Assembly (NCBI GenBank): GCA_020351835.1
Contig: CP070669.1
Location: 2,015,096-2,050,885 of the forward strand
DNA length: 35,790 bases
Direction: 5' to 3'
Source: Nitrospirota bacterium
GTDB taxonomy: Bacteria; Nitrospirota; Thermodesulfovibrionia; Thermodesulfovibrionales; BMS3Bbin05
Shown: piece by piece, positions 6,165 through 28,394 of the stretch
How positions within the stretch are numbered: the first letter of the stretch is position 1
Layout of the letters: each line of letters begins with the position of its first letter
Notes under the pieces: generated by a model
The model's database searches: none
Seen by the model: the letters and a program-made list of their open reading frames with translations, nothing else
What the model was told of the DNA's origin: nothing
Program-made: the position numbers and the translations under genes

Positions 6165-7196
6165 TTACTTCTTTTTAGCTAAAGCTTCTTCAAGCTTCTT
6201 TACTTTTTTCTCAAGATCTGTAATAGATTTGTTGGTCTTGGCAAAATTATACCACTGTTCCCCGTTAGGTGCTTCAACAGGATAGTCGGCATAATGTGAT
6301 CCCCAGACCCTCCATGACTCATCCCAGTTAGCGGCGTTCTTGAACCCCATAAGACGAAGCTCAAGGTACGTAAGGGTAGAGCGCGTTCCTGTCTGGCAAT
6401 ATCCTATCGTCCTCTTGTTCCTGTCCAGCTTACCGAACTTTGCCTCAAGAACATCAGGAGAAAGATATCCGGTAGGATTATTCTTCTTAGTCTTCGGATC
6501 TGCCTGCTGTACCACTGTATCCTTATGAGATACGTTCATCGTAACGTTAGGTATATGACCACATCTCACGGCCCTGCAATCCTTGCCGTCAAATTCCTTA
6601 TCTGTTCTTGAGTCTATGAGCTGAACACCTTTTTTCTTGTTGGTTGCGATCTGCAATATCTCTGCAGTCGATGCGTAAGCATCGTTATTCATCTTCTTCG
6701 CTACGAACTTCGAAGGTGCCTTCTTTGACGGCTTCTTGTCCAAGCGATTACCTGCCTTTCTCCACGCATCTACACCTCCGTTAAGCAAATGTACCTTATC
6801 GTGTCCGAGGTATTCCATTACCCAGAACCCTACCGTAGCATCGGGCAGGTCCTTGAAATCACCATGGTAAAATACGACATGGGTATCATTGCCTATACCT
6901 ACCTTGCTTAACATCTTCTCGTATTTCCCCGTATCACGGTAAACACGAGCTGTCGCATCCCTGAAGACCTTCTTGCATCTGTCCCCAAGACTTATTGCGC
7001 CGGGGATGTGCCCCTCAGCATATTTCTTGAGTTCCCTGCAGTCAACCACGACCCAGTCAGACTTCGAGATGTTCTTCGCTACCGTTTCGGCATCAACAAG
7101 CAGGTCCGGGTTTGCAAACTGAGCTGCCGATGAAAGGCCAGCTGCAGACAGCAAGAACATGCTTACAGCCAAGATAATTAGAAACTTACGCGCCAT
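6165..7196 (-). CDS. exported tandem-domain rhodanese-like sulfurtransferase
   Basis: 343 aa. A signal peptide (MARKFLIILAVSMFLLSAAG, likely cleavage after SSAA near residue 25) predicts export. Two rhodanese domains follow. In the N-terminal one (about 30-155) the active-site loop reads FYHGDFKDLPDA and lacks cysteine; in the C-terminal one (about 175-310) the loop is YCQTGTRS with the catalytic Cys that carries persulfide. This active-C/inactive-N layout is usual for thiosulfate:cyanide sulfurtransferases and mercaptopyruvate sulfurtransferases. The last 25 residues (ITDLEKKVKKLEEALAKKK) form a short charged coiled coil, which is not typical and could mediate oligomerisation. A GAGGAGG ribosome site precedes the ATG. 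The gene has its own sigma-54 promoter with two palindromic operators, which ties it to the yedE, tusA and yeiH units. It probably moves sulfane sulfur in the periplasm. Confidence 0.88.
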   Translation of the reverse strand: MARKFLIILAVSMFLLSAAGLSSAAQFANPDLLVDAETVAKNISKSDWVVVDCRELKKYAEGHIPGAISLGDRCKKVFRDATARVYRDTGKYEKMLSKVGIGNDTHVVFYHGDFKDLPDATVGFWVMEYLGHDKVHLLNGGVDAWRKAGNRLDKKPSKKAPSKFVAKKMNNDAYASTAEILQIATNKKKGVQLIDSRTDKEFDGKDCRAVRCGHIPNVTMNVSHKDTVVQQADPKTKKNNPTGYLSPDVLEAKFGKLDRNKRTIGYCQTGTRSTLTYLELRLMGFKNAANWDESWRVWGSHYADYPVEAPNGEQWYNFAKTNKSITDLEKKVKKLEEALAKKK

Positions 7197-7269
7197 CGTT
7201 ACCTCCTCTTTGTTTTTTTAGGGTTAATAAAGCGCCTTGTTACTTCCCTCATATTTACCAGAGAATAGA

Positions 7270-7284
7270 GCAAGTTGTGTGCCA
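7270..7284 (-). promoter_or_regulatory. sigma-54 (-24/-12) promoter of rhodanese gene
   Basis: Read on the minus strand, TGGCACACAACTTGC (7284 to 7270) is a perfect match to TGGCAYR-N4-TTGC with 10 nt between GG and GC. The expected start site is near 7258, about 62 nt before the ATG. Two copies of the TTGTCC-N6-GGACAA palindrome lie upstream at about -74 and -106. Confidence 0.85.
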
Positions 7285-7302
7285 GAAAAAAATCCAATAA
7301 TA

Positions 7303-8490
7303 TCAACTATCTAATTCAGCAATTGTCCTGTTTGGAACAATCCCTCGTAAGCCTTTGTCCTTCTGGGGACAAAGACTCCTCTCATCTCCGTCGGGGCCGG
7401 TACGACCCGTCCCTGAACGAATATATTCATACAGAACTGCCGGTATCATCCGGGGGTTAAAAAAGATGTTCGTCATCATATAGCACTCATTAGTACAGTA
7501 ACAGGTCCCCTTTGAAACCTCTCTGATCGAATCGGACGCTGATATCGATGATAAAAGGTCTTTCATGTCATAACTGTGCTCACGTATGTTCCCTAGTTTA
7601 TTCCGGAGCGACTCGCATGGATAAACATCTCCGTTCTCAGTAAGCACTATGTTCAGTCTTCCCGCATAACATCTCATAACCCTTTTCTTCTCGACCATCG
7701 TTCTATAGATAGCCCTGCTCTGCAATCTATCCTGGGCAGATTTTAGCCCTGCACCAAGGAACCTGTAATTGCCGGTATTTTCCCATGTACTCCCGGGAAC
7801 AGTACCATTTGTCACCCTGTAATACATCTCTATCTCATCACTGCTCAGGCCGTTAGACCCCGAACTATTCCTCAGCACCGATACAGTGTGCGTACCTACC
7901 CCATCAAGCTTGCTAACTATTCTCTTTGTTGCTTCCATATAGTCTTTGTTATCGGGACAGAACACCGTATTAATACCAAGCTCGAAGTTCGGATACCGGT
8001 CAATATATTTAGAAAGTGCTTTATAGGTATTAAGCACCTTATTAAAAGCCCCTTTAACGCCTCTTAACTGATCATGGATACTTTCAGGTCCGTCCAGCGA
8101 CAGTTTCACTACAACCGTACTTTTCCTGCACGTCCTGAGTATCTCCTCTACCTGGTCCCTAATAGTATTTATAAGCAATCCGTTCGTAGATAAAAGAATT
8201 ATGGAAGGTTTATTGTTACGGTAAAAGACCCCTGCTAAGTCATGGATATCCTGCCTAAGGAAAACTTCACCGCCTGAGAAAGCCAGCCACATTAAGTTCC
8301 CCATTGATCTGGACACCTTCTCTATCTCTTGGAGCGACAGTTCTTCATAAACCTGCTGTCTCTTTATGTTCGATCCATAAAAACAGAAACTGCACCGGGC
8401 ATTGCATCTCGATGTCACAAAACAAGTAAGATGGACAGGACTCCTTTTCCAGAAAACAGAGCTTAAATGTCTGAACGGTGAATATGACAT
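7303..8490 (-). CDS. radical SAM protein with C-terminal SPASM-like Cys region
   Basis: About 395 aa from the ATG at 8490, three nt after the stop of the upstream GT2 gene; a longer reading from 8574 would overlap that gene by 80 nt and has no support. The radical SAM motif is CNARCSFC (C29, C33, C36), followed by the glycine-rich FSGGEVF SAM motif. The C-terminal part holds several cysteines (CYAG, YPCESLRNKLGN, CYCTNEC), the pattern of SPASM or twitch auxiliary [4Fe-4S] sites in enzymes modifying peptides, alcohols or sugars. It is the last gene of the yedE operon and follows a glycosyltransferase and a B12-radical SAM enzyme. A role in glycan or lipid modification is inferred; the substrate is unknown. 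Its 3' end holds the operators of the next gene. Confidence 0.85.
   Translation of the reverse strand: MSYSPFRHLSSVFWKRSPVHLTCFVTSRCNARCSFCFYGSNIKRQQVYEELSLQEIEKVSRSMGNLMWLAFSGGEVFLRQDIHDLAGVFYRNNKPSIILLSTNGLLINTIRDQVEEILRTCRKSTVVVKLSLDGPESIHDQLRGVKGAFNKVLNTYKALSKYIDRYPNFELGINTVFCPDNKDYMEATKRIVSKLDGVGTHTVSVLRNSSGSNGLSSDEIEMYYRVTNGTVPGSTWENTGNYRFLGAGLKSAQDRLQSRAIYRTMVEKKRVMRCYAGRLNIVLTENGDVYPCESLRNKLGNIREHSYDMKDLLSSISASDSIREVSKGTCYCTNECYMMTNIFFNPRMIPAVLYEYIRSGTGRTGPDGDERSLCPQKDKGLRGIVPNRTIAELDS
7323..7372 (-). promoter_or_regulatory. paired palindromic operator (UAS) for rhodanese promoter
   Basis: Two 18-bp sites with centres 32 bp apart. 7323-7340 is TTGTCC-TGTTTG-GAACAA (one mismatch between arms). 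7355-7372 is TTGTCC-TTCTGG-GGACAA (perfect, extendable to 8-bp arms at 7353-7374). Both sit inside the 3' end of the neighbouring radical SAM coding sequence, at about -74 and -106 from the sigma-54 start site. The same motif occurs at three other promoters in the window. It is presumably bound by the NtrC-type regulator at 21354-22712. Confidence 0.75.
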
Positions 8491-8494
8491 GGCA

Positions 8495-9487
8495 TCAACC
8501 GAACTGTATGCTTTTATTAAAATGCATGAAGTTGCCGAATATGGCACCAGCCCCGACCGGTATCGGATATACAAAAAAATAATATACTACCGACTTAAGG
8601 GTAAAGATGATACCCCTAGCACGGTACATCGCATTTATTAACCTGATATTTACTAAAACATTCAGAACGAAAGCCGCAGCTATAACCGGATATAATGAAG
8701 TGCTAGTCACAATGCCTGTAATGAGAATGAAGTAAAGCGACCACGTAAGGATCACATTGGCCTTAAGACCCAAAGATGCCGTCCCTGAGTCGTCAAATAT
8801 GTTCTTGCTCTTCAAGATGTATGCAGTCCAGTACATCGACTTCATAAAGGCATTTCTTACCGATCTCAGGAAGTTAAAATTGAATTTGTGCCTGACGACC
8901 AGTCCGTCTATCATGGACAGTTCCATTCCGCCCCTTTTTGCCCTGTGACTGAACTCAACATCCTCGATCATCGGCAGGAATGTCTCGTTGAACCCTCCCA
9001 ATGCTCTGAACTTATCAGCATTGATGATCATTGCATGAGTCGCTACATAATCCGGTGAGCCAATATCCCTGAGCTCATTATGGTTTATGAAGACAGACTG
9101 GAACGTGCTATAAAAATCTTTATCATACGGCAATGATGTATATGAGCCGCCAAGGATCCTATTCTCGCCGTTTCTATCATAGGCAAGTGCAACTTTCTCA
9201 AGTGTATTCACGCTGACAATGCAATCTGCGTCAGTAAAGAACAGGATCTCTCCTGAAGCGTGTCCAGCCCCCACATTACGCGCCGCGGCAGCCCCGCTAT
9301 GTTCGTCAAGTTCTATAAGTGTGCAGGGGTATCTCTTTATTATCATCCGGGACGCGTCCTCGGATGCGTCATCTACTACTATTACTTCATAATCGTCATA
9401 TAAAGAGCCGCACAATGCTTCAAGACATATGCCTATCGTATCGGCTCCGTTCCTGTTCGGGACGATAACAGATATCCTTCTACTCAT
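8495..9487 (-). CDS. family 2 glycosyltransferase with C-terminal membrane segments
   Basis: 330 aa. The N-terminal GT-A domain begins ISVIVPNRNGADTIGICLEAL and has VVDDASED and the metal-binding FFTDADC (DxD-like), then an acceptor motif with ED (MIEDVEFSHRAKRGG). The last 110 residues contain two or three hydrophobic helices, so the enzyme is membrane-bound with the catalytic domain in the cytosol. Its start overlaps the preceding B12-radical SAM gene by 4 nt (ATGA), showing translational coupling. It probably transfers a sugar to a lipid carrier or surface glycan; donor and acceptor cannot be read from sequence. Confidence 0.9.
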   Translation of the reverse strand: MSRRISVIVPNRNGADTIGICLEALCGSLYDDYEVIVVDDASEDASRMIIKRYPCTLIELDEHSGAAAARNVGAGHASGEILFFTDADCIVSVNTLEKVALAYDRNGENRILGGSYTSLPYDKDFYSTFQSVFINHNELRDIGSPDYVATHAMIINADKFRALGGFNETFLPMIEDVEFSHRAKRGGMELSMIDGLVVRHKFNFNFLRSVRNAFMKSMYWTAYILKSKNIFDDSGTASLGLKANVILTWSLYFILITGIVTSTSLYPVIAAAFVLNVLVNIRLINAMYRARGIIFTLKSVVYYFFVYPIPVGAGAIFGNFMHFNKSIQFG

Positions 9488-10935
9488 AAGTTCGTACCTT
9501 CCGGCTCGGGCCTTTTAAACAATCCCTTCTTTACCATTATCCAGAAGAGGCTTTTAATACCCCTGTACGCGGCTATCAGGTCATTCAGCGACCTCAAGCC
9601 AATAACCCGCCTCAGGAGAAATCGCGGACGGGAATAGAACCTTCTGAAAGCTACCTGCCTGAGGTCACTTATCTGTTTTCTCGACATCGTGTAGGGTACA
9701 AATGCTGACCCCTGATACGTAAGATCAGCCAGGTTATCGGACATCCATCCGTAATCATCGACCTTGTCGTAAAGCTCGGTGCCCGGGAAAGGTGTTAATG
9801 CATGGAAGTTCGCTACGTCAGGGTCTATCTCGCACGCAAAGTCAATGCTTCTGAGCCCATCTTCATATGTCTGCCCGGGTATCCCGAACAGGAACGGGGT
9901 GAAGACCCTGAGCCCTGCTTGCTTTGCAACAGTTACCGCTTTCCTTATCTGTTCGACCGTGATGCCCTTTTTCAAGGTGTTAAGGTCCTTCTGGACACCG
10001 GACTCGGCACCCATCAATATTGCCCAACATCCTGCATCTTTGAATTCGCTCAGCATCTCGAGATCTACATGATGAACACAGGCAGACGCAAACCATGTGA
10101 AGTCCAGACCTTGCTTCTTTATCTCCCTGGCTATATTTCTGGCCCTTTGTCTATCGGCCGCAAAATTATCATCGATGAACTTTATCTCACGATATCCCTG
10201 AGCAAGACATAGCTCGATCTCCTTCATGACATTCTCTACACTCCTGAACCTTATTCCGCTTTTTCTTTCCCTGTCCATCTGAAAGCAGAAAATACATCGT
10301 CTGTTGCACCCTCGCGATGTCATTATCACAGCAACCGGCTTTCTCTTATATGTCGCAGGGGGTGGTATATACTCATCATGGCCGAGAAGCTCACGGGCGG
10401 GGAACGGAAGAGAGTCAAGGTCCGCAATAAGGTCCCTTTCAGGGTTCCGCCAGATAACATCTCTTTGGGACCTGAAAGCAACACCCTTCACCCCGTGCAA
10501 AGACCTCTCTTCAGATAATCTCTCGATCATTTCAATGACCGTAAACTCCCCCTCCCCCGTTACCACAGCATCTATGGCATCAGTGTCCTTTAAACACTTA
10601 TCCTTCATCGCGATCGGATACGGCCCCCCGACAGCCAGGAACGCCCCGGGGATCAGCTTTTTGATATCTTCCGCAGTCTTAACGGCCTTATACCATCCAA
10701 AGGCCGTAGAGTACAGACCAACAAACTCAGGCGCATAACGCTCGATCTCATCAAGTATGCCAGCATGATCAAGAAAAGCACCGTTAAGGAACTTAACATC
10801 GTGGCCAGCTTCTAATAGCGAAGATGCTACCGAAAGTGTTCCCAATGGTTGCCAATAATTTATCTGAGAGGCAGCGGTCTTCGTAGGGAATATCTCCTCA
10901 GGCTCCCACGATGGTATGACAAGTACGCACTTCAT
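9484..10935 (-). CDS. B12-binding-domain radical SAM protein
   Basis: 483 aa. Residues 1 to about 150 form a Rossmann-like cobalamin-binding domain without an obvious DxHxxG motif, as in many class B radical SAM proteins. The radical SAM core follows with CNRRCIFC (C210, C214, C217) and a TIM-barrel region up to about 420. Related enzymes methylate or rearrange unactivated carbons in lipids, hopanoids, bacteriochlorophylls and natural products. It overlaps the flavoprotein gene upstream and the GT2 gene downstream by 4 nt each. The substrate is unknown; the neighbours suggest a membrane or surface glycolipid. Confidence 0.88.
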   Translation of the reverse strand: MKCVLVIPSWEPEEIFPTKTAASQINYWQPLGTLSVASSLLEAGHDVKFLNGAFLDHAGILDEIERYAPEFVGLYSTAFGWYKAVKTAEDIKKLIPGAFLAVGGPYPIAMKDKCLKDTDAIDAVVTGEGEFTVIEMIERLSEERSLHGVKGVAFRSQRDVIWRNPERDLIADLDSLPFPARELLGHDEYIPPPATYKRKPVAVIMTSRGCNRRCIFCFQMDRERKSGIRFRSVENVMKEIELCLAQGYREIKFIDDNFAADRQRARNIAREIKKQGLDFTWFASACVHHVDLEMLSEFKDAGCWAILMGAESGVQKDLNTLKKGITVEQIRKAVTVAKQAGLRVFTPFLFGIPGQTYEDGLRSIDFACEIDPDVANFHALTPFPGTELYDKVDDYGWMSDNLADLTYQGSAFVPYTMSRKQISDLRQVAFRRFYSRPRFLLRRVIGLRSLNDLIAAYRGIKSLFWIMVKKGLFKRPEPEGTNL

Positions 10936-12323
10936 CGTAGACCCTCTTTGGCAGCAATTACATTATTGCACCGCATATGATCTGCGCTGCGGGACCTTCT
11001 GGCAGCCTCTAACCCTGACCTTATCGCATGGTCCATATTAAGGTACTGGAACGTACCGCCTCTTCCGGCGATCTCCAGATTGTCGAATTTACTGATATAG
11101 CCGAGTACAAGCTCATAGTATTTACGATATGTGGTATCAAGAAGAGGGTAAGCTCTGGGGACCCGAACCACACAGCTGTCCATATAATCTCCTTTACCGA
11201 TAAAGTTCAGCTTTTCCAAGGTATCAAGAGTAATTCCGGTAAGAATTTCATCCCCGGAGTTCCATGTCGGATCATTCCTGAAACAAAAATATTCTGCAAC
11301 TATATGGGTCTTATCTTCCGGTGCCATGAGACCGCTCCAGTTCTTAGGCTCATGAATGCGTCCTACGGGGATCTTACTTTCAGGCAGATAGAGCCAATTT
11401 AGGTCTGTAACACTGCTTCGGTCCAGCATTAATGCAACTACTATAAGGTCCCTGTAGTGAAGATGTGAGATTGCATGCAATATATCATCGGGTGGAGCAG
11501 GATCAAGGGCCCTTATCATGCAGTCCAGAGGAATTGTAGATATTACTGAATCGGCATGTTCCTCTATCAGGTCAGGACCTTCGCGAAATACCACCGACTC
11601 TATTCGCCATGAACTGTGACGGACCTTTAATACCTCAGCATTCGTTAATATCTCTCCAGTTCTCAGAACTCTGCTTTTCAGACGCTCGGATATCTCACCA
11701 ATGCCCGTCCTCGGGTATATGAACCTGTCTGCCAGAGTATCTATGCCTTTACCGCTGAACCTGAACAATGCCTTTTTAGCAGCCTGCCATAGAGATAACC
11801 CGCTTATTCTTTGCGAGACCCATTCCTGACTTATATCGCTGCAATCTATTCCCCACACCTTCTCACTATATTTCTTGAAGTAAAGTTCGAACATCTTCCT
11901 GCCGAACCTTCCAACTACCCAGTCCTCAAGAGACACTATATCTGAAGGTGAGACAACGTTCTTAACCCTCTCATAAAGATAATCTTTGATGATCTTCAAG
12001 GTAGTGCTCAGACCCAGTCCAAACACAGCATTGCCCGGCTTCAGGGGATAATCGAAGAACCTGTCCTTAAAGTATATGGCGCTCTTTCGCGGGACATCAA
12101 GACATTCTTCGGCAAGCAGCTCCTTTACCAGTGTCTCAACCTCTTCATCCCTGGTTATGAACCTATGCCCTCCGAGGTCGAACCTGAACCCGTTGTAAGA
12201 ATGGGTCCTTGCCAATCCACCGACATCTCCCCCTTTCTCAAGGATCAATGTGCTTTCATTATGATCTGTCAGATCAAATCCTGCTGAAAGCCCGGCTAGA
12301 CCGGCACCCAGAATTATCTTCAT
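10932..12323 (-). CDS. FAD-dependent oxidoreductase (protoporphyrinogen oxidase/amine oxidase-like)
   Basis: 463 aa. The N-terminus has a dinucleotide fold GAGLAGLSAG and ILEKGGDVGGLARTH, followed by FDLGGHRF, the hallmark of the flavin amine oxidase, protoporphyrinogen oxidase and UDP-galactopyranose mutase-like superfamily. A C-terminal FAD contact region is seen around GRGGTFQYLNMDHAI. Proteins of this subtype often sit in polysaccharide or isoprenoid clusters rather than haem clusters, and no haem gene is near. It overlaps the UspA gene by 4 nt and the next gene by 4 nt. The reaction is not assignable; a sugar or polyprenyl oxidation is one possibility. Confidence 0.82.
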   Translation of the reverse strand: MKIILGAGLAGLSAGFDLTDHNESTLILEKGGDVGGLARTHSYNGFRFDLGGHRFITRDEEVETLVKELLAEECLDVPRKSAIYFKDRFFDYPLKPGNAVFGLGLSTTLKIIKDYLYERVKNVVSPSDIVSLEDWVVGRFGRKMFELYFKKYSEKVWGIDCSDISQEWVSQRISGLSLWQAAKKALFRFSGKGIDTLADRFIYPRTGIGEISERLKSRVLRTGEILTNAEVLKVRHSSWRIESVVFREGPDLIEEHADSVISTIPLDCMIRALDPAPPDDILHAISHLHYRDLIVVALMLDRSSVTDLNWLYLPESKIPVGRIHEPKNWSGLMAPEDKTHIVAEYFCFRNDPTWNSGDEILTGITLDTLEKLNFIGKGDYMDSCVVRVPRAYPLLDTTYRKYYELVLGYISKFDNLEIAGRGGTFQYLNMDHAIRSGLEAARRSRSADHMRCNNVIAAKEGLR

Positions 12324-12781
12324 TTTGCTATGAGTACTGGTATCTCGGACCTGTTGACGACCTCTCTGCTTATACTTCCCATCAGAAGGCCGTGGCGACT
12401 GCTGTCACGAGCCCCCAGAACGATAAGTTCCACCCCGTCCGAAGCGGTCTCCAGTATCTCATCTGCAGGATGTCCCTGCTTGACAACCGGTTGCACACCC
12501 GAGATGCCATTTTCTTTAAGAAAACCTACGAAATGGTCCGTTACCTTTTTGGCTTTCTCGTCCAGTTTTGATTGATAATCGGTACCTTTAAGAGATTCTT
12601 TAAGTTCGTTCATTTCTGAAACGCTTAGCAGCGCATCGTCCATCAACGAGAATCCCTCAAGCTTCTCAACATATAGAACAATTACGGTCTCCGGCTTTAC
12701 ACAAGGGAAAAGGCGGACCAGTGTTTCAGCAGCCTTAAGTGATCCCTGAGTGTTGTCTATGGCCAGTAGAACTTTCTTCAT
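12320..12781 (-). CDS. universal stress protein (UspA family)
   Basis: About 153 aa from the ATG at 12781, chosen because GGAGGAGAG lies just before it and the protein then starts MKKVLLAIDNTQGS, the normal beta-1 strand of the family; a longer reading from 12820 adds 13 residues without a ribosome site. The ATP-binding signature G-x2-G-x9-G(S/T) is present as GARDSSRHGLLMGSIS followed by VV. Single-domain UspA proteins bind ATP or AMP and act under starvation or stress. Its position in the yedE operon suggests co-expression with sulfur uptake. Confidence 0.9.
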   Translation of the reverse strand: MKKVLLAIDNTQGSLKAAETLVRLFPCVKPETVIVLYVEKLEGFSLMDDALLSVSEMNELKESLKGTDYQSKLDEKAKKVTDHFVGFLKENGISGVQPVVKQGHPADEILETASDGVELIVLGARDSSRHGLLMGSISREVVNRSEIPVLIAK

Positions 12782-12836
12782 TAAACTCTCCTCCGCAGCT
12801 AAGGCATTCGCCGTCACCACTGCAAATGGATTTCTA

Positions 12837-13037
12837 TTATTCTGTCAGGCTTTTATAATAATCCTGCATATCTTCACTTATACCCTCTATCAGCTCCGAA
12901 CCGCCCCCGTAACCGGCAGCCTCAACAGCACCAAAGTATCCGGGTTCGGTCCCCGTTCGGCTGGATATTGAATATCCTCCGAGGAAACCGAGCAGCCATG
13001 CAGCCACCGCAATGATCAGCCATATGTTCTTACTCAT
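12837..13037 (-). CDS. small single-span membrane protein A
   Basis: 66 aa with a strong ribosome site (GGGGGAAAGATA before ATG). One N-terminal transmembrane helix (IWLIIAVAAWLLGFLGGYSI) is followed by a Gly/Tyr-rich linker and an acidic C-terminus (GISEDMQDYYKSLTE). It is clearly similar in plan to the adjacent upstream 62-aa protein: MxxNxWxI start, GF-x2-GY at the helix end, glycine-rich middle, acidic tail with a conserved Tyr/Lys end. The family is not recognised. Its place between tusA/yedE and uspA suggests a partner of the transporter or of TusA. Confidence 0.75.
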   Translation of the reverse strand: MSKNIWLIIAVAAWLLGFLGGYSISSRTGTEPGYFGAVEAAGYGGGSELIEGISEDMQDYYKSLTE

Positions 13038-13049
13038 TATCTTTCCCCC

Positions 13050-13238
13050 TTACTCATCAGACTCTTCCTTGTACAGGTTCTCATACATCTGTTTAAGTTC
13101 CTCATCGCTCATCTCTTCTACAGACGCCTGTCCTCCTTTTCCAAAACCCACTTCCATAAAAGGCGGAACCGCGTATCCCATCATGAACCCGAGGAATATC
13201 ACGACTATGATTATTATTACCCAAAGATTGGTTTTCAT
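13050..13238 (-). CDS. small single-span membrane protein B
   Basis: 62 aa, preceded by GGGAG 8 nt before the ATG. The helix LWVIIIIVVIFLGFMMGYAV is followed by PPFMEVGFGKGGQ and an acidic tail EEMSDEELKQMYENLYKEESDE. It is a likely paralogue of the next gene downstream, from which it is separated by 12 nt. It is unrecognised as a family. It lies 27 nt after tusA, so it is co-transcribed with the sulfur-transport genes. Confidence 0.75.
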   Translation of the reverse strand: MKTNLWVIIIIVVIFLGFMMGYAVPPFMEVGFGKGGQASVEEMSDEELKQMYENLYKEESDE

Positions 13239-13265
13239 AGCATTATCTCCCTTAGAGAACTATCT

Positions 13266-13517
13266 CTAGTCCTTTTCTATCTTGAAAGTGAATATGCCGC
13301 CTTCCATCGCCTTATCGACTATCTTGTTGCCGTTTGAATCGCACATAGCAGAGATAGATTCAGATGATGAAGGGTTATCAAAAACCACCTCTAGCATCTC
13401 ACCTCCGCTCAGCTTCTCAAGGGCTTTCTTGGTATAGATCTGCGGATGCGGGCAAACATATCCGGTCACATCCAGCAGATAATGTCCATCTTCCTTTTTT
13501 TCAAATTTCATTGCCAT
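13266..13517 (-). CDS. tusA: TusA-family sulfur carrier protein
   Basis: 83 aa of the TusA/SirA/YedF fold. The active Cys is present in the classic motif CPHP (YVCPHPQIYTKKALEKL), which carries sulfur as a persulfide. The second half EMLEVVFDNPSSSESI matches the family's beta strand and helix. AGGAGG lies 8 nt before the chosen ATG. It follows yedE by 17 nt. In other organisms TusA beside YedE/YeeE receives or delivers sulfur for the membrane transporter, so it probably links thiosulfate or sulfane-sulfur import to cytoplasmic sulfur relays. Confidence 0.92.
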   Translation of the reverse strand: MAMKFEKKEDGHYLLDVTGYVCPHPQIYTKKALEKLSGGEMLEVVFDNPSSSESISAMCDSNGNKIVDKAMEGGIFTFKIEKD

Positions 13518-13534
13518 GTCAAAATCCTCCTTTT

Positions 13535-14965
13535 TTATAGGTCAAATGCTGCCATTTCTTTTGCCATTTTTCGCTCTGTCCACCAATTAAAGAACTTCAC
13601 CCCTATAAACGCTCCGCCGATCATTCCGATCCCGAATAGCCATCCCGAAGGATCTCCGTTGGCCGCTCTCACAAAGAAACCTCCAACATTGCAGCCTAAT
13701 GCCAGTCGTGACCCTATGCCCATCAGCGCGCCGCCGATGAGGGCCCAGATCGCTAACTCCTTTGTCGGAGCTTTCCATTTGAACTCACCATGAAGTAGCG
13801 CCATTACTGCTGCACCGCCTATGAGAGCAACGGACATCCAGTCGGCAGGATTGAATGCAGGGTTCGGAATCCCGTTCACCCAGCCAAAGAATATGTTATC
13901 CATATTGTTCCAGCCAAGCTTCTGCATTAACCATCCCACCCACTGGGCCTCCTGGGTGGTAACATACCAGTACCCGGGATCGAACACAGTCCCTTTTGCA
14001 GAAAGACCGAAATCATAACCCAGCCTCTCAAGGATGGTACCTGCATTCTTGACCCCGAACTTCATCCTCAATCCCTCGATAACGAACATCTGAAGACCGC
14101 ATGCGACACCAAGAAAAAGGCCGGCTATAGATGTTCTCTTCGATGCAGTTATCATGCTCCAGAACCCTCTGAAGTGATCCCCGAACGTAAAAACTCCCTT
14201 TTCCTGCACGACCTTCTTTTTATAGTTCCTCTTTACCCAAACATAGTAGACCCATAAGAGGATAAGCATGGCCGGCAGACCGACTCCGGTAAGCAGGTTT
14301 CCAAGGAAAGCTCCTGATATCGAATCAGTTTTCATGCCCATAAGCTCGGCTACCCTCAGGACCGGCTGATCCCAGACATAACCTGCAAGATACTGGTCAA
14401 CCCACCCGTCGGAAACGTTGATAGTGTCAGGCAATCCTTTTGTAGCCGCCGATGCCGCCCATGACTTCGGGACAAGCTTATTGAACCAGCCACCGATATC
14501 AACGAATGACGACTGAGTAACACTTATAGAAAGAACTACGAGCATGGCAACCCCGTTACCTTCACCGCTCTTATAAAGCGACCCAGAAGCACATCCACCG
14601 GCAAATACCATCCCTACACCGAATATCAGACCCGCGATAGCGGCATGGATACTGGTAGGTGCAGGATGGAAGGTGCTCCACCCTGTTGCATTAACAAATG
14701 CAGAGGTAAAACCGAACAGGATAGTTGCTATCATGATACCTACCGCCATCCTGGGCACTCCCACAGCGAAAAGGTCCCTGAAAGCAGAAGCAAAACAGAA
14801 CCTGCCGTACTGAAGACACATGCCGTAAATGAAACCAAACCACAGATAGGCCTGCAAATACACATAATATTCATGTGCTGCAAAAGTACCAACGCTTATA
14901 ATTACAAAGAACGCGACGATCCCCAAGGCCCAGAGCTTGTTTTTTCTCGGAACTTCTATTTCCAC
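13535..14965 (-). CDS. yedE: YeeE/YedE-family sulfur transporter (TsuA-like)
   Basis: 476 aa polytopic inner-membrane protein with roughly ten or more hydrophobic helices. The conserved cysteine sites of the YeeE/TsuA family are all visible: GRFCFASAFRD near the N-terminus, FAGGCASGSLYKSGEGN in the first half and LALGCNVGGFF in the second half, reflecting the internal duplication. In characterised members these cysteines pass thiosulfate through the membrane. An extra loop of about 45 residues (SWAASAATKG onward) and an aromatic-rich segment (about 335-385) enlarge it relative to short YeeE proteins. It is the first gene of a long operon, directly behind a sigma-54 promoter with two operators, and is followed by tusA. 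The substrate (thiosulfate or another sulfane sulfur) is inferred. Confidence 0.93.
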   Translation of the reverse strand: MEIEVPRKNKLWALGIVAFFVIISVGTFAAHEYYVYLQAYLWFGFIYGMCLQYGRFCFASAFRDLFAVGVPRMAVGIMIATILFGFTSAFVNATGWSTFHPAPTSIHAAIAGLIFGVGMVFAGGCASGSLYKSGEGNGVAMLVVLSISVTQSSFVDIGGWFNKLVPKSWAASAATKGLPDTINVSDGWVDQYLAGYVWDQPVLRVAELMGMKTDSISGAFLGNLLTGVGLPAMLILLWVYYVWVKRNYKKKVVQEKGVFTFGDHFRGFWSMITASKRTSIAGLFLGVACGLQMFVIEGLRMKFGVKNAGTILERLGYDFGLSAKGTVFDPGYWYVTTQEAQWVGWLMQKLGWNNMDNIFFGWVNGIPNPAFNPADWMSVALIGGAAVMALLHGEFKWKAPTKELAIWALIGGALMGIGSRLALGCNVGGFFVRAANGDPSGWLFGIGMIGGAFIGVKFFNWWTERKMAKEMAAFDL

Positions 14966-15035
14966 CTCGTTACCTCCTTATGATTTATTTATCTGAATCG
15001 TATGAGCATCACTATTTTCTGTAATTCAACTAAGA

Positions 15036-15050
15036 GCAAAGACTATGCCA
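15036..15050 (-). promoter_or_regulatory. sigma-54 (-24/-12) promoter of yedE operon
   Basis: On the minus strand TGGCATAGTCTTTGC (15050 to 15036) fits TGGCAYR-N4-TTGC perfectly with correct spacing. The start site is inferred near 15024, about 58 nt before the yedE ATG. It is preceded by two operator palindromes at about -86 and -117. Confidence 0.85.
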
Positions 15051-15100
15051 CAAGGATAGCTTTGAAAATTAAAGAAAAATTGAAAGAAAACGATAACTTT

Positions 15101-15149
15101 CTGTCCATATTGGGACAGTGGCTCGCAAAAGCTGTCCTGATCAGGACAT
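15101..15149 (-). promoter_or_regulatory. paired palindromic operator (UAS) for yedE operon
   Basis: Two 18-bp sites with centres 31 bp apart. 15101-15118 is CTGTCC-ATATTG-GGACAG (perfect 6-bp arms). 15132-15149 is CTGTCC-TGATCA-GGACAT, whose inner 16 bp form a perfect palindrome. The second site contains the stop codon of the glycosyltransferase gene ending at 15141. The motif is the same as at the rhodanese, tusA-like and yeiH promoters. Confidence 0.78.
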
Positions 15150-16859
15150 ATCCTTTAATTCGTAAACATAAATAAATGAATTGAACCTGAACACACCGGA
15201 ACTCTTTTCAAAGCTGCGAAGAAGTCTTGCTCTTTTACCTATAAAAGGAGAGAGTGAGCCATCCGGCTCGAGCAGCTTTTCTCCTGTTATCAAGGCTACG
15301 ATCCCCCGTTGAACAGAATTCCCCACATATGGTTCTGTCATATCAAGCTCCCAGGTAAACCTTAATGGTGTACTTTCAATACCCTCCGGCATCTGTGCAG
15401 GCTGTTCAGGGCCAACATACCGCAGCTCCTTATCAGTATAGAGGTCAAGTATAGGAAGGACAGCTGCGGTATTTCCTGTTGACACAGGCTGTGGCATAAC
15501 AGTAATACTTACAGGTCCATGCTCTAATGAATCAATATATTCACCTGCGTCCCTGATATTTACCATACTTGTTCCTGTTACAAACGGTAAGTATCCCGCA
15601 AATAAGATGAACATGCTGAACGCCAGCATGCCAAACGCAACATATCTCTTTACATAACTGTATCTGACGGTACTCATTCCGTATGAAGCAGCAACAGATA
15701 GTAGAGGAAATAGAGGCATGAGATAGCGCATGCGTTCTATCCTGAATACGATGATAAAAACAAAGGCCCATAAAGGAATAAGAGCGGTAAGATCCCTGTT
15801 CTTCAATGAGAACCATGCACAAATTACGGTAAGTACAATGATATACGGGTGTGACTGGAATAAGAACATTGATATAAATGATTCCTTCCAGCGGCCAAGT
15901 GCAGGGAGTTGATAAGATCTCAAAGTACCTATCTGGGCTGATATAACATCATATTTGAGTATCAGGAATGCACACATTACTAACATTACCGGGAGCCCCA
16001 CATAAACCACTTTTCTCCATAAGCCATTTGCATCACCTTTTTTAAATACCAGTGGGATAATAGCGAGACCGATAAGCATCGGCCATGTTGAATATTTGCT
16101 CAGAGCTGCACATATAATGCTGGCGCAACAAAGGACTATATTAGAAACACCTCCAAACTTAATGACTCGCACCGCCAACCAGTACGACAGTGTCAGGAAA
16201 CACATCGCGGCAACATCGACCATCATAAAAGGGACCTGAATAAATATATAAGGCACGGACATTAGTATTAGTGAAGCATAGAAACCTGTTTCCCTTTCAA
16301 ACAGATCGCTGCCCATGCGGTATGCAGCATAGACCGTGATGGAGAACATGCCGGCATTAAAGATTTGGATAATCTCCCTTGACTCTCCAAAGACACTGAA
16401 AAGGAGCCCATACACAAACGGAACAAGCGGCATATCTGTCCATGCAGGCACTGCCCCGCCCCACTCTTTCATAAAATAGAAAGACCCTTCTAGCATCAAC
16501 GCTTTGGCCTGAATGACATATCTGGATGTATCAAGATATAGCTCCGGCATACCCCTCAATACCAGAACTATAAAGAAGGGGGTCAGAAAGGAGATAGATC
16601 CATATGATCTTACAGGGATGTCCACCCGCGTCAAAACGAGAGATACAACGATACTCAGCACATGCATCATATAAAGCGTTCGAAGCCTTGTGCCATCGAA
16701 CACCCACTGCCAGCTTGATAAAGTATTGTTATCAAGAAAGCGAAATATATAAAGGATCGGGAATAAAATAAGATTAATAAAGACAACTAACAGGATGATC
16801 TCTTTTCCCCGGACCTCTGATACAGGCGGCCCCGTTATTGTCAGAGCATCGCCCTTCAT
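15141..16859 (-). CDS. polytopic membrane glycosyltransferase (GT39/ArnT-like)
   Basis: 572 aa with around eleven hydrophobic helices. The first periplasmic loop after a hydrophobic segment has LDTSRYVIQAKALMLEGSFYF and then WTDMPLVPFVYGLLFSVFG, matching the PMT/ArnT family where an acidic residue in this loop is catalytic and the sugar comes from a polyprenyl-phosphate donor. The C-terminal 140 residues form a soluble, probably periplasmic domain. The ATG follows the stop of the DsrE-like gene by one nt, so it is translationally coupled to the sulfur-carrier genes. A surface glycosylation role is inferred; why it is co-expressed with sulfur relays is unclear. Confidence 0.82.
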   Translation of the reverse strand: MKGDALTITGPPVSEVRGKEIILLVVFINLILFPILYIFRFLDNNTLSSWQWVFDGTRLRTLYMMHVLSIVVSLVLTRVDIPVRSYGSISFLTPFFIVLVLRGMPELYLDTSRYVIQAKALMLEGSFYFMKEWGGAVPAWTDMPLVPFVYGLLFSVFGESREIIQIFNAGMFSITVYAAYRMGSDLFERETGFYASLILMSVPYIFIQVPFMMVDVAAMCFLTLSYWLAVRVIKFGGVSNIVLCCASIICAALSKYSTWPMLIGLAIIPLVFKKGDANGLWRKVVYVGLPVMLVMCAFLILKYDVISAQIGTLRSYQLPALGRWKESFISMFLFQSHPYIIVLTVICAWFSLKNRDLTALIPLWAFVFIIVFRIERMRYLMPLFPLLSVAASYGMSTVRYSYVKRYVAFGMLAFSMFILFAGYLPFVTGTSMVNIRDAGEYIDSLEHGPVSITVMPQPVSTGNTAAVLPILDLYTDKELRYVGPEQPAQMPEGIESTPLRFTWELDMTEPYVGNSVQRGIVALITGEKLLEPDGSLSPFIGKRARLLRSFEKSSGVFRFNSFIYVYELKDMS

Positions 16860-16860
16860 T

Positions 16861-17163
16861 TTATAGCACTATCAAGCGGTCTGATTCATTGGCCATCACG
16901 GCGTTGTTATATTGACTGCCGGACACTATCTCTCCCGGCAGGCCGCTCTTATCCAGCTTAAGCTGTTGCGCGTTATGATCACAGTAACTTACCGAAACAC
17001 CCTTTGATCCTGTCAGTTCAAGCAATGAAGGATCATGCATAATATTGATACCCTCATCCATAACGAAGATAATGACCTCATGACCGGCAGCCAGAGCCGC
17101 TTTAGCTATTCCGTTAACATCCCCTGCATATTTATCTGAATTGATGAGCATTCCGATCTTCAT
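16861..17163 (-). CDS. DsrE-family sulfur relay protein
   Basis: 100 aa with a DsrE/DsrF-like Rossmann-type fold: MKIGMLINSDKYAGD start, GHEVIIFVMDEG, and a single central cysteine C61 in YCDHNA, then SGSQYNNAVMANESDRLIVL. In DsrE proteins a cysteine in this region accepts sulfane sulfur from TusA. It lies fourth in the tusA-like operon and is coupled to the membrane glycosyltransferase downstream. A cytoplasmic sulfur-acceptor role is likely by family. Confidence 0.82.
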   Translation of the reverse strand: MKIGMLINSDKYAGDVNGIAKAALAAGHEVIIFVMDEGINIMHDPSLLELTGSKGVSVSYCDHNAQQLKLDKSGLPGEIVSGSQYNNAVMANESDRLIVL

Positions 17164-17191
17164 AATATCAAACCCCCTTCATATCGATAAT

Positions 17192-17359
17192 CTACCAGGA
17201 TATTACCTTGTCGCTTGTAACGATCAGATAAACAAGGTCCTCATAATCTTTAGACTCCCTCAGGTCGTATATCTCAACTTCGTTCTGTTCCCTGTGTCTC
17301 TTTATTATGTCTTTCAGGGTCGGATCAGGATCTTGTTTCAATATATAAAGTATCCTCAT
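17192..17359 (-). CDS. DsrH/TusB-like small protein (55 aa)
   Basis: This 55-codon gene fills the gap between the two DsrE-like genes. It starts MRILYILKQDPDPTL and ends LVYLIVTSDKVISW. The start has an excellent ribosome site (GGAGG, 9 nt before ATG). The opening strand, the middle EVEIYDLRES and the terminal aromatic residue recall DsrH/TusB proteins, but it is about 40 aa shorter than usual and has no cysteine. Coding character is supported by tight operon packing (20 nt after the upstream gene, 28 nt before the next). The assignment to DsrH/TusB is tentative. Confidence 0.72.
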   Translation of the reverse strand: MRILYILKQDPDPTLKDIIKRHREQNEVEIYDLRESKDYEDLVYLIVTSDKVISW

Positions 17360-17379
17360 GTTCTTATTCCTCCTTCATC

Positions 17380-17652
17380 TCAGTAAGGTATTATATGGTC
17401 GTAATCGAGAAGCTTATCGGCAATTTCTGTGTCAGACAGATATTCTCCCGTCCCGCCATCTTTGACGTTCGTGTAGACATTTATATCCATCATCTCCGCT
17501 GTCTCGAGATTAAGGTCGTTCTCATCTGAAGGCTCTACAGGCCTGTCCATGATGAACATATTGATGACATCGTCAAGCAGGGTGATACCTACAGCCATCC
17601 TCAGCGCCTCTCGTTGTCTTTCTCTGACAACAACTGCAATCTTTTTAGCCAT
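17380..17652 (-). CDS. DsrE-like small protein without cysteine
   Basis: 90 aa beginning MAKKIAVVVRERQREALRMA and containing VINMFIMDRPVEPSDENDL. The first strand followed by an ALRMAVG helix and a VxMFIMDR strand looks like a DsrE/DsrF-type fold, but no cysteine is present, so it cannot itself carry a persulfide. AGGAGG lies 5 nt before the ATG. It sits between the Cys-less TusA-like gene and the DsrH-like gene and may be a structural subunit of a DsrEFH-like complex. Confidence 0.7.
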   Translation of the reverse strand: MAKKIAVVVRERQREALRMAVGITLLDDVINMFIMDRPVEPSDENDLNLETAEMMDINVYTNVKDGGTGEYLSDTEIADKLLDYDHIIPY

Positions 17653-17672
17653 ATTTCCTCCTGGAATTGACC

Positions 17673-17921
17673 TTAGAACTCAGTTTCGACCTTCTTTATA
17701 GCGTAGAGGAGCATCCCTTTGTCCTCTTGACTTTCGATCAGCAGGTGCCCTTTATCACTGCAAATATCGGATATAACGGACCTGGTCGATGGATCATCAG
17801 CAACTATCTTAAGGACCTGACCCGCACACATATTACCGAGTGCTGTTTTGGCCAGCGCACCTATTCTTTCTGATCCAACACCCTTAACATCGAGTGTCTT
17901 GTCGACCTTAATACTGTCCAT
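17673..17921 (-). CDS. TusA-like protein lacking the catalytic cysteine
   Basis: About 82 aa from the ATG at 17921, chosen because AAGGAG stands just before it; the reading from 17939 adds six residues that contain this ribosome site. The sequence LDVKGVGSERIGALAKTAL aligns without gaps to the TusA signature LDVRGLxCPxPxxxxKxAL, but the active Cys is replaced by Ser17 and both prolines are lost (E18, I20). The second half, GQVLKIVADDPSTRSVISDI, is typical TusA. It is the first gene after a sigma-54 promoter. It may be a regulatory or scaffolding form of TusA; cysteines at CAGQ and DICSD remain but are not in the carrier position. Confidence 0.8.
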   Translation of the reverse strand: MDSIKVDKTLDVKGVGSERIGALAKTALGNMCAGQVLKIVADDPSTRSVISDICSDKGHLLIESQEDKGMLLYAIKKVETEF

Positions 17922-17963
17922 ATTGCTCCTTAACATCAATTAATCTCTGTCAGTATTGCAAAA

Positions 17964-17978
17964 GCAAGTTAAATGCCA
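17964..17978 (-). promoter_or_regulatory. sigma-54 (-24/-12) promoter of tusA-like/dsrE operon
   Basis: On the minus strand TGGCATTTAACTTGC (17978 to 17964) matches the consensus fully outside one variable base. The inferred start site near 17952 leaves a leader of about 30 nt before the ATG at 17921, enough for the ribosome site. One operator is seen at about -87. Confidence 0.82.
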
Positions 17979-18105: not shown

Positions 18106-19752
18106 ATGAGGCGCTTATTTAAGGGAGACCTTCTGCGATGCATATTATTGTCATTCGTAACATTGTTTTATACGGTTATATCCGGACAAGCTACGGCAAC
18201 GGGCAGTGATACCGCCCCTCTGACCTTCATCTCACTTCCCGTTGAGAACGTAAGCATTATGTACGAAAAGTTCCTACCTCTTAAAGAGTATCTTGAGCGG
18301 GCCGTTAACAGGAAGATAATCTTCAAGGTTGCCCAGAACTATCAGGATGCAATACAGCAGGTCGGAACGGGAAATGCCCAACTCGCATATCTTGATCCTT
18401 CTTCATATTGCGAAACGCGTTCACTTTATGAGGTCATCCCGGTCGCTCGAGCAATTAATTCGGGCTTACCCACCTATAAGAGTGTTATTGTTGCTCGACA
18501 TGATTCTAAGATTGAAAAGATTGTAGATGGGAAAGGTAGCAGGCTCGCTTTGGGAAACAAAAGCTCTTCTTCGTCATATCTTATACCAGCGGTGATGTTC
18601 AAGGAGGTCGGCATCGAGCTTAAAGATTTCAGTTCGGTTGACTACCTCGAGGAAGAGGACAGGATAGCATTGTCAATTATGGTCGGCAGACATGACCTGG
18701 GTGGCATGAGCCTGGCTGTTGCCAATAAATATCTGAAAGACGGGATCAAGATAATCAAGACATCCGAATCGATACCGCAGTTCTCCATAGTTGCACATAG
18801 AAGCCTGCCCGATAATATGATAGATAAAATCAGGGCAGCCCTGACATCTATCGATAAAGAAAAGGATGTCGAGCTTGTCAAAGCAATGGGTGACATCGAG
18901 GGTTTTGCTGAAGTGGTTGACAGGGACTTTGATGTTGTAAGGGTTATGATAAGGAACTTATCAGGCACCAATTATCTCAAATACGACAAAGACACCAACA
19001 AGGTAGCTATCCTGCCACTTTATTCTGCTATTACTCTGTATGACAGGTTCGACCCTCTAATGAGATACCTGAGCGACAAGACAGGACGTGAGTTCAAACT
19101 TGTGATACCTAAGGATTTCGAGACCTTTTTCGATACTATAGCAAGCAGAAAGGTAGAGTATTCCTACTCCAATCCGTATATATATACACTGCTTGCTGAC
19201 AAACGATATTTAAGCGCTTTTACAAATACGATTAAGCCTCCAACCGGTGATATATTCCGCGGAGTTATAATTACCCACAAGGACAGTAAAATAAATAAGA
19301 TATCTGATCTGAAAGGCAAACAGGTAATGATCGTATCCCCTTTGTCCGCCGCCGGGTTCCTTGCACAGAACCTGTTCCTGCTTGAGAACGGCATTGATGT
19401 AATGAAGGACATGAAGGTTATCGACGGGAAGAGACAGGAGGAGGTCATTCTTAATGTGTACAGAAAGGACGTGGATGTAGGGTTTGTAAGAGAGACTGCA
19501 CCTATAGTCCTGAAAGAAGAGATTGATCTGGACGAGATCCGTATACTGGCCAGCACACCTTATATACCTAACTGGCCATTTGCAGCAACTCCCAAGGCAG
19601 ATAAGAACATAACGGAGATTGTGCAAAAACATCTTATTGCTCTGAAGGACCCCTATGTTCTTGAATCAGCTAAGATATCTGGATTCAAGGCAGCGAGCGA
19701 CAGGGACTTCGACGTATTGCGCGAATGGATAAAGAGACATGATAATAAATAA
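18106..19752 (+). CDS. tandem PhnD-like periplasmic binding protein, likely sensor component
   Basis: 548 aa. A signal peptide (hydrophobic LLRCILLSFVTLFYTVIS) is followed by two PhnD/TctC-type substrate-binding modules, about 38-290 and 300-545, each ending in near-identical FAEVVDRDFDVVRVMIRN / FKAASDRDFDVLREWIKR. Each has the phosphonate-family pattern of a YSNPYIYTLL/YLDPSSYCE loop and an IVSPLSAAGF/LGNKSSSSSYL anion-binding Ser-rich stretch. No ABC permease or ATPase is encoded nearby; instead the gene overlaps a histidine kinase by 14 nt. It probably captures an oxyanion such as a phosphonate-, phosphate- or sulfur-oxyanion-like ligand and informs the kinase. The ATG lacks a good ribosome site. 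Confidence 0.85.
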   Translation: MRRLFKGDLLRCILLSFVTLFYTVISGQATATGSDTAPLTFISLPVENVSIMYEKFLPLKEYLERAVNRKIIFKVAQNYQDAIQQVGTGNAQLAYLDPSSYCETRSLYEVIPVARAINSGLPTYKSVIVARHDSKIEKIVDGKGSRLALGNKSSSSSYLIPAVMFKEVGIELKDFSSVDYLEEEDRIALSIMVGRHDLGGMSLAVANKYLKDGIKIIKTSESIPQFSIVAHRSLPDNMIDKIRAALTSIDKEKDVELVKAMGDIEGFAEVVDRDFDVVRVMIRNLSGTNYLKYDKDTNKVAILPLYSAITLYDRFDPLMRYLSDKTGREFKLVIPKDFETFFDTIASRKVEYSYSNPYIYTLLADKRYLSAFTNTIKPPTGDIFRGVIITHKDSKINKISDLKGKQVMIVSPLSAAGFLAQNLFLLENGIDVMKDMKVIDGKRQEEVILNVYRKDVDVGFVRETAPIVLKEEIDLDEIRILASTPYIPNWPFAATPKADKNITEIVQKHLIALKDPYVLESAKISGFKAASDRDFDVLREWIKRHDNK

Positions 19753-22953: not shown

Positions 22954-22968
22954 AGGCACTCTTATTGC
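22954..22968 (+). promoter_or_regulatory. sigma-54 (-24/-12) promoter of yeiH
   Basis: AGGCACTCTTATTGC has GG (22955-22956) and GC (22967-22968) at the correct distance and matches TGGCAC-N5-TTGC except for the first base. The start site is inferred near 22980, giving a leader of about 143 nt. Apart from this promoter and the operators, the 395-nt gap between the response regulator and yeiH holds no gene that I can see. Confidence 0.78.
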
Positions 22969-23123
22969 TTTTAATACTCTTTAAAATATAGAGCAACGGT
23001 CACAATAAAAGACCGCAATAAGAGGGGGAGGTGATACCACGATAATATTATGGCCATTATCAGAAGTCTGCAGTAAAAACCCTTACGATGTGAGGGTATT
23101 GTCCTGTCATGGAGGAATATATT

Positions 23124-24893: not shown

Positions 24894-24900
24894 CAGGCTA

Positions 24901-25176
24901 ATGAGCATTAACAAAGAACAATTGAGCAACTCGGGTGGGCCGCAAGGCCCACCCAATATTCTCCTTAGATGGGCTATGATGCTGTTCTGCCTTGCCATCG
25001 TTTGGCTATTTATATTCGTGGCAGCGCCGGCAATGCAATCCTCGCCAATGGTTGAGCCGCTTGCAGTGTATATAAACGAAAGCGGCATAGACGCCGGTGC
25101 TCTTTATTACACTGAGATAGAGGAGACCTCAGAAGCAGAAGTGTATCTGAGAAGTGTGCTAAAAAGAACGGATTAA
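24901..25176 (+). CDS. small single-span membrane protein downstream of yeiH
   Basis: 91 aa. A Gly/Pro-rich N-terminus precedes one helix (WAMMLFCLAIVWLFIFVAAPAM), followed by a short domain rich in acidic residues (YINESGIDAGALYYTEIEETSEAE). It begins 7 nt after the yeiH stop with only a weak ribosome site, suggesting coupled translation. I do not recognise the family; its position suggests an accessory subunit of the transporter. A strong GC-rich hairpin lies within its first codons. The 158 nt after it, up to the converging electron-transfer operon, hold nothing I can identify. Confidence 0.72.
   Translation: MSINKEQLSNSGGPQGPPNILLRWAMMLFCLAIVWLFIFVAAPAMQSSPMVEPLAVYINESGIDAGALYYTEIEETSEAEVYLRSVLKRTD
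24933..24954 (+). other. GC-rich hairpin with GCAA tetraloop inside coding start
   Basis: GGGTGGGCC and GGCCCACCC form a perfect 9-bp stem closed by a GCAA (GNRA) loop, 32 nt after the start codon of the small membrane protein. No U run follows, so it is not a standard terminator. It could slow ribosomes, stabilise the upstream yeiH mRNA against 3' decay or set the ratio of the two proteins. Confidence 0.6.
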
Positions 25177-26048: not shown

Positions 26049-26067
26049 TTTTCTACACTCATATCTA

Positions 26068-28391: not shown

Positions 28392-28394
28392 CGT

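Follow-up and report, generated by a model that had tools for sequence, protein, structure and literature searches.

The 35,790 bp stretch analyzed here (the window; contig CP070669.1 of assembly GCA_020351835.1, positions 2,015,096 to 2,050,885) belongs to a Nitrospirota bacterium and contains a locus in which sulfur-transfer genes grouped around a YedE-family membrane protein are combined with glycosyltransferase and radical SAM genes. On the minus strand, from position 17939 to 6165, the locus comprises TusA2, CHP90, CHP55, DsrE, GT39/PMT_2, YedE, TusA1, sm62, and sm66, followed by a universal stress protein (Usp), a flavin adenine dinucleotide (FAD) enzyme, a B12-radical SAM protein, GT2, a radical SAM/SPASM protein, and an exported double rhodanese (Table 1). 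A three-gene regulator set, and then YeiH with a partner of 91 amino acids (aa), are divergent from it. The YedE, TusA, DsrE, small-protein, rhodanese, and YeiH genes lie at or near the positions given in an earlier note on this DNA, YeiH being outside the interval 6165-17921 that the note had delimited. The conserved CHP55 gene had been overlooked.

Table 1. Genes and sigma-54 sites of the locus and its divergent neighbours, in window coordinates.
Feature	Description	Position	Strand	Match or remark
TusA2	TusA-like	17673..17939	-	Pfam TusA E 1.4e-6, slightly under cut-off; NCBIfam TusA 44 bits
CHP90	90 aa, putative DsrF-like subunit of DsrEFH type II-like trimer	17380..17652	-	
CHP55	55 aa, DsrH-like small subunit	17192..17359	-	open reading frame (ORF) in gap between CHP90 and DsrE
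DsrE	DsrE-like sulfurtransferase	16861..17163	-	Pfam DsrE E 4e-5, above Pfam cut-off
GT39	GT39/PMT_2-like membrane glycosyltransferase	15141..16859	-	Pfam PMT_2 E 6.9e-12
YedE	476-aa Sulf_transp membrane protein	13535..14965	-	Pfam Sulf_transp E 9.5e-37
TusA1	sulfur carrier, CPHP motif	13266..13517	-	Pfam TusA E 9.1e-21
sm62	single-span small membrane protein	13050..13238	-	hydrophobic peak 2.7
sm66	small single-span membrane protein, sm62 paralogue	12837..13037	-	sm66 profile also matches sm62
Usp	universal stress protein family	12320..12820	-	Pfam Usp
FAD enzyme	FAD-dependent amine oxidase/UDP-Galp mutase-like protein, PRK07208 group	10932..12323	-	
B12-radical SAM	B12-binding radical SAM protein, HpnJ/BchE-like	9484..10935	-	Pfam B12-binding + Radical_SAM
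GT2	glycosyltransferase, C-terminal part hydrophobic	8495..9487	-	Pfam Glycos_transf_2 E 1e-26
Radical SAM/SPASM	radical SAM/SPASM protein	7303..8574	-	Pfam Radical_SAM, SPASM; true start probably downstream of overlap with GT2
Rhodanese	exported, two-domain, active loop CQTGTR	6165..7196	-	Pfam Rhodanese E 1.5e-28
Regulator set	PhnD-like double binding protein, histidine kinase, sigma-54 response regulator (three genes)	18106..22712	+	
YeiH and partner	YeiH-family transporter with long N-terminal extension (23109-24893) and 91-aa partner (two genes)	23109..25176	+	Pfam PF03601
Sigma-54 site	before TusA2	17963..17978	-	TGGCATTTAACTTGCT, 1 mismatch, 41 bp from ATG at 17921; 18/2000 shuffles
Sigma-54 site	before YedE	15035..15050	-	TGGCATAGTCTTTGCT, 0-1 mismatch, 69 bp from start; 3/2000 shuffles
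Sigma-54 site	before rhodanese	7269..7284	-	TGGCACACAACTTGCT, 0 mismatch, 72 bp from start; 5/2000 shuffles
Sigma-54 site	before YeiH	22954..22969	+	AGGCACTCTTATTGCT, 1 mismatch; 9/2000 shuffles

A conservation scan of named genomes with YedE yielded 80 loci, and the 33 well-covered ones (at least 8 kb on both sides) were used for gene counts. YedE, TusA, sm62, and sm66 were each present in all 33, GT39 in 32, and DsrE in 29; CHP90, GT2, and the B12-radical SAM gene were each found in 28, CHP55 and the radical SAM/SPASM gene in 27 each, the FAD enzyme in 24, and Usp in 20. The rhodanese, already joined to the gene set in the earlier note as an exported protein, has a hydrophobic, signal-peptide-like N-terminus and accompanies 31 of the 33 loci; the loop CQTG[TSI]R was kept in 50 of its 52 relatives. 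YeiH was linked in 10 of the 33, and its proposed role as a sulfate exporter, which derived from the family name only, was not supported. Its score with TIGR00698 (65 bits) is under the cut-off of that model, and close pairs of YeiH and the 91-aa partner were found in L006, L014, and L024 at 72-80% identity. The same gene order, glycan and radical SAM genes included, was seen in Nitrospirota, Desulfobacterota, Alpha-, Beta-, and Gammaproteobacteria, and Rokubacteria, with one partial, rearranged locus in Acidobacteriota. Because they are conserved across the loci, the genes between the two supposed operons belong to the locus: the reading of two co-regulated operons held for the co-regulation (see below), but GT39, the FAD enzyme, the radical SAM proteins, and GT2 are locus members and no unrelated genes lie between. 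In the YedE tree, Nitrospirota and Desulfobulbia were mixed within the starred sets, which suggests horizontal transfer, with the reservation that bins of metagenome-assembled genomes can be contaminated.

Residues Cys57, Cys125, and Cys425 of YedE, aligned with StYeeE (6leo), are invariant, and TusA and/or the small proteins follow YedE within 1.1 kb in all 77 loci compared. Its cysteine motifs are ordered GRxCF, GGCxSG, and GCNVG, as in TsuA (YeeE) of the TsuA/TsuB system of Spirochaeta thermophila (6leo/8j4c), where the halves of the protein have the same order and the motifs GRxCF, GGCxSG, and GCN(V/I)G are aligned. The window protein differs from TsuA in length (476 against 339 aa), in its partners, and in its NCBIfam TsuA score (102 against 400 required). 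In the YTD-type YedE of L126, the order is GCNVG, GRxC, and GGCxTG, and local matches cross the halves, so that, by its motif order, the window YedE belongs to another subfamily. Two apparent YedE candidates in L125/L126 were discarded as antisense ORFs, the true YedE of L126 being on the opposite strand. A second Sulf_transp protein of 352 aa is encoded elsewhere in the genome (L149:4663-5721, about C1:1.916 Mb); it is nearer to TsuA (275 bits) and has no adjacent tusA among the ORFs listed.

The DsrE, CHP90, and CHP55 profiles matched the DsrE (E 2e-18), the second protein (E 8e-11), and the DsrH-like protein (E 1e-16) of the Desulfobulbales YTD trimer, respectively; judged from these matches, the trimer proteins of the window are homologous to those of the YTD trimer. 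DsrE Cys61 is invariant in 20 aligned rows, and the predicted DsrE model (pLDDT 94.6) had the DsrE chain of Allochromatium vinosum DsrEFH (2hy5_A) as its best PDB match, with a TM of 0.86. This canonical DsrEFH differs in that the identity is 21% only, CHP90 has no significant match to it, and proteobacterial and rokubacterial carriers encode it in their dsr operon besides the locus trimer. A Foldseek search with CHP90 gave no match below 0.001, and hence no significant DsrF match, and PDB profile searches with CHP90 and CHP55 gave nothing useful. TusA1 carries CPHP, i.e., the CPxP of YTD-type tusA. TusA2 has lost the catalytic CPxP cysteine in the window and in several Nitrospirota relatives, but others retain CPxP, and the proteins lacking it still have a second conserved cysteine. 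The same genome has a second complete CHP90-CHP55-DsrE trimer, without YedE; DsrP/DsrO-like genes and a tetrahaem cytochrome stand at a distance of about 7 kb from it (L129:5273-6053 and 12532-15286, about C1:442-452 kb).

The YTD cluster of Umezawa et al. (2020) served as one comparison, its description being taken from PMC8780430, PMC9751629, and PMC12998232. The window shares with it YedE-, TusA-, and DsrE-family genes and two small conserved proteins, and its trimer matches by profile. It differs in the opposite order of the YedE halves, in the addition of GT39, the glycan and radical SAM genes, and an extra TusA-like protein, and in that the five genes are not contiguous, since GT39 and a sigma-54 promoter separate DsrE from YedE. 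In Desulfobulbales carriers (G017-G024) there is a second trimer, with a DsrE that shares 69-75% identity with the L016 DsrE; in L126 the second trimer, together with TusA and a divergent 416-aa YedE, constitutes the YTD arrangement, and in L016, L123, L124, and L131 it adjoins GT2 and radical SAM genes. Identity of the locus with the classical YTD cluster was rejected, since both occur in the same Desulfobulbales genomes and the YedE halves are swapped. Of the sulfur interpretation given earlier, the handling of sulfane sulfur tied to Dsr/adenosine phosphosulfate (APS) metabolism stood, but not the equation with the YTD cluster of disproportionators. With DsrEFH type II of cable bacteria (PMC13293266), the window shares three small proteins (dsrE-, dsrF-, and dsrH-like genes) encoded in synteny with tusA and yeeE/yedE, and a DsrE with one invariant cysteine and the DsrE fold; the DsrE of carriers outside Desulfobulbales shares only some 24-47% identity with the Desulfobulbales type. 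Subtype 1 of DsrEFH type II has been reported in Nitrospirota and Pseudomonadota (PMC13293266), and the window trimer may represent it. The sulfur part is a variant of the known YTD/DsrEFH type II kind; the novelty lies in the extended locus and its conservation rather than in the relay itself. Radical SAM and glycosyltransferase genes are unmentioned in the main text of the YTD and DsrEFH type II papers searched, including PMC13293266; likewise, a search of the openly accessible literature on YedE/YeeE with radical SAM or glycosyltransferase genes found no description of the extended locus.

Among the added genes, the HpnJ/BchE-like protein is matched at the family level, with HpnJ as the best NCBIfam model (224 bits), but it is far under the equivalog cut-off of 577.6, and no hopanoid genes were seen in the locus. 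Downstream of the window, the same genome contains a paralogous trio (L085:3633-8304): a GT39-like membrane protein (assigned by eye), a FAD enzyme of the PRK07208 group, and a B12-radical SAM protein similar to HpnJ/BchE. The surroundings of this trio hold no sulfur genes.

Promoters of the -24/-12 type were scored against the sigma-54 consensus TGGCACNNNNNTTGCW, with 2000 dinucleotide shuffles of each upstream region as the control. Sites precede TusA2, YedE, the rhodanese, and YeiH (Table 1), and two more one-mismatch sites in the window are placed less well. Co-regulation is supported by these sites, whose occurrence is far beyond chance. Of 78 loci, 32 have such a site ahead of YedE, where the control rate is 1%; by title, the carriers are all Nitrospirota or delta-type (Desulfobacterota) except for one Rokubacterium. 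The sites of the remaining genes mostly lack a counterpart in the other loci compared, so co-regulation of the rhodanese and TusA2 applies to the window's genome only. The PhnD-like protein, histidine kinase, and response regulator form the probable regulator of the locus; the binding protein weakly resembles the TtrS sensor (E 1e-14), and relatives of the response regulator were found in 20 loci, only in Nitrospirota, Desulfobacterota, and one Rokubacterium.

In the set formed by the window's genome and 50 other carriers, dsrA was matched in 46 of 51 genomes (40 above the cut-off) and aprA above the cut-off in 41. Among 246 Nitrospirota genomes, dsrA was present in 39 of 43 with YedE vs. 70 of 203 without it, the four YedE-positive genomes lacking dsrA being 70-85% complete; when only good genomes were taken, the numbers were 37 of 37 vs. 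64 of 171. In one gammaproteobacterial order, dsrA occurred in 7 of 7 carriers vs. 57 of 102 non-carriers (p 0.04); all these co-occurrence tests ignore shared ancestry. In the same order, a second dsrA was found in 4 of 7 locus carriers vs. 2 of 102 non-carriers, and the carriers L141, L142, and L143 have a second, divergent dsrAB (about 477 bits) beside a dsrC-like gene. Physical linkage was observed in L004, where no more than about 8 kb separate dsrABD from YedE, and in L058 and L078, where aprBA is on the same stretch as YedE, L058 also having dsr genes. In carriers from Proteobacteria and Rokubacteria, the dsr operons include canonical DsrEFH, a layout of the oxidative type as judged from operon content alone.

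The genome of the window, a single contig of 2.29 Mb (96.9% complete), was examined by family searches and in single stretches. The earlier note had made its sulfur reading depend on sulfite- and APS-handling enzymes, and these were found: sat-aprBA-qmoABC at L087, dsrABD with a cobyrinate-synthase-like gene, dsrC, and dsrMK at L083, and DsrP/DsrO-like genes adjoining the tetrahaem cytochrome at L129. The genes dsrA, aprA, aprB, dsrC, and dsrM scored above the cut-offs, and sat, qmoABC, dsrB, and dsrD were assigned by sequence and synteny. The DsrP/DsrO-tetrahaem set resembles the dsrOhPh-tetrahaem locus of cable bacteria (PMC13047784). A cbb3 oxidase operon is present, so an external electron acceptor is available; another COX1-family gene, accompanied by a cytochrome, may encode a NO reductase (by eye). 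With regard to a MOLY cluster or a thiosulfate/tetrathionate reductase, PF00384 was detected in six places; those examined were NuoG-like or a fusion protein, two were not placed by a family model, and no PhsA, TtrA, Nar, or Nap was recognised among the molybdenum enzymes examined. In the fusion protein of 1126 aa (L138:4730-8110, C1:851730-855110), aa 1-707 form a molybdopterin oxidoreductase resembling formate dehydrogenase/thiosulfate reductase, and aa 745-1120 a cysteine desulfurase of the NifS/IscS type. Sulfur oxidation, disproportionation, and sulfate reduction cannot be separated from the genome alone.

Taken together, gene content and order, shared promoters, dsrA/aprA co-occurrence, conserved cysteines, the DsrE fold, and the cbb3 oxidase point to a sigma-54-controlled uptake of sulfane sulfur that feeds the Dsr pathway, a reading to which we assign a probability of about 0.6; activity, substrate, and direction are predicted from sequence. 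On the outer side of the inner membrane, thiosulfate, polysulfide, or sulfur would be the source from which the exported rhodanese loads or releases sulfane sulfur, and YedE with the two small membrane proteins would pass it through the membrane via the three conserved cysteines, by analogy with TsuA. TusA1 and the DsrE/CHP90/CHP55 trimer may then carry the persulfide to DsrC, as the biochemistry of DsrEFH type II implies (PMC13293266), for oxidation by DsrAB, AprAB, and Sat to sulfite and sulfate. Electrons would presumably pass through DsrMK/Qmo and on to oxygen by way of the cbb3 oxidase; in disproportionation they would return to sulfur. More speculatively, GT39, GT2, the FAD enzyme, and the two radical SAM proteins could make an envelope glycoconjugate needed for uptake, e.g., for contact with insoluble sulfur or its handling. 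It is possible, and we put it forward tentatively, that this is a previously unrecognised cross-phylum sulfur-acquisition locus, used by bacteria with reductive- and oxidative-type Dsr, in which solid or polymeric sulfur reaches the YedE channel only with the help of a dedicated envelope molecule made by the radical-SAM/glycosyltransferase pathway (or of small membrane proteins modified by it). The locus also offers gene targets for the question of how insoluble or polymeric sulfur crosses the envelope to Dsr.

Several findings weigh against uptake into the Dsr pathway. Since dsrA is near-universal in the order to which the window's genome belongs, its co-occurrence with YedE is partly phylogenetic; the more TsuA-like transporter of L149 and the second complete trimer of the same genome could do the same jobs as the locus YedE and trimer, and TusA2 is without its catalytic cysteine. 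The envelope role of the glycan and radical SAM genes is putative, being suggested by GT39 and GT2. Proteobacteria and Rokubacteria with the locus already hold canonical DsrEFH, so the locus trimer may serve something other than DsrC; in these carriers it would be either a second entry route or a part of the radical-SAM/glycan pathway. The relay might also bypass Dsr and donate sulfur to the radical-SAM/glycosyltransferase pathway, which would make an envelope molecule containing or binding sulfur, or would modify sm62 and sm66. The unbroken adjacency of sm62/sm66 to YedE (77/77), the adjacency of the trimer to GT2 and radical SAM genes even apart from YedE (L016, L123, L124, and L131), and the canonical DsrEFH that proteobacterial carriers already have for DsrC are in keeping with such a bypass. 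We consider it quite improbable, as 5 of the 33 carriers have no radical SAM genes near YedE, the B12-radical SAM and FAD paralogues of L085 stand apart from sulfur genes, no sulfur-insertion enzyme was recognised, and the tight link with dsrA would need another explanation.

YTD/DsrEFH type II genes have been used as markers, at first of sulfur disproportionation and, since 2026, of sulfur oxidation by sulfate reducers. A locus for disproportionation proper would take up elemental sulfur or thiosulfate, convert a part to sulfate by reverse Dsr/Apr/Sat, and reduce the rest with no external acceptor. The cbb3 oxidase speaks against this, but the reductive-type dsr genes with DsrD fit it, and so do the absence of a recognised PhsA, TtrA, Nar, or Nap among the molybdenum enzymes examined and the homology of the window trimer to that of YTD, a cluster whose abundance in Desulfolithobacter was higher when thiosulfate was disproportionated (PMC9751629). 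In Desulfobulbales, the classical YTD is a separate locus; moreover, YTD/DsrEFH type II does not track disproportionation in a review of isolates (PMC13293266) and is argued to be a poor marker of it alone (PMC13293266, PMC12998232). The related locus occurs both in bacteria with reductive-type Dsr and in Proteobacteria and Rokubacteria with oxidative-looking, canonical-DsrEFH dsr operons, which argues against taking such genes as evidence of disproportionation; the locus therefore marks the uptake of sulfane sulfur into Dsr metabolism, not disproportionation as such, and a disproportionation locus proper seems unlikely. Ordinary assimilation, tRNA thiolation, or selenium metabolism (YedE/YedF, TusABCDE type), with the neighbours gathered by chance, is very improbable: the distant similarity of TusA1 and YedE to YedF and YedE/FdhT stays far under the curated cut-offs (49 vs. 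79 and 120 vs. 350), on which selenium YedE/YedF membership was rejected, and both the dsrA co-occurrence and the neighbours conserved across phyla oppose it.

Elsewhere in the window (25335-34979, minus strand), HdrA-like, HdrC-like, FlpD-domain, NuoE/NuoF-like, ferredoxin, and aldehyde:ferredoxin oxidoreductase-like genes were found, which, by an assignment made by eye except for the FlpD domain, suggest an electron-bifurcating complex.

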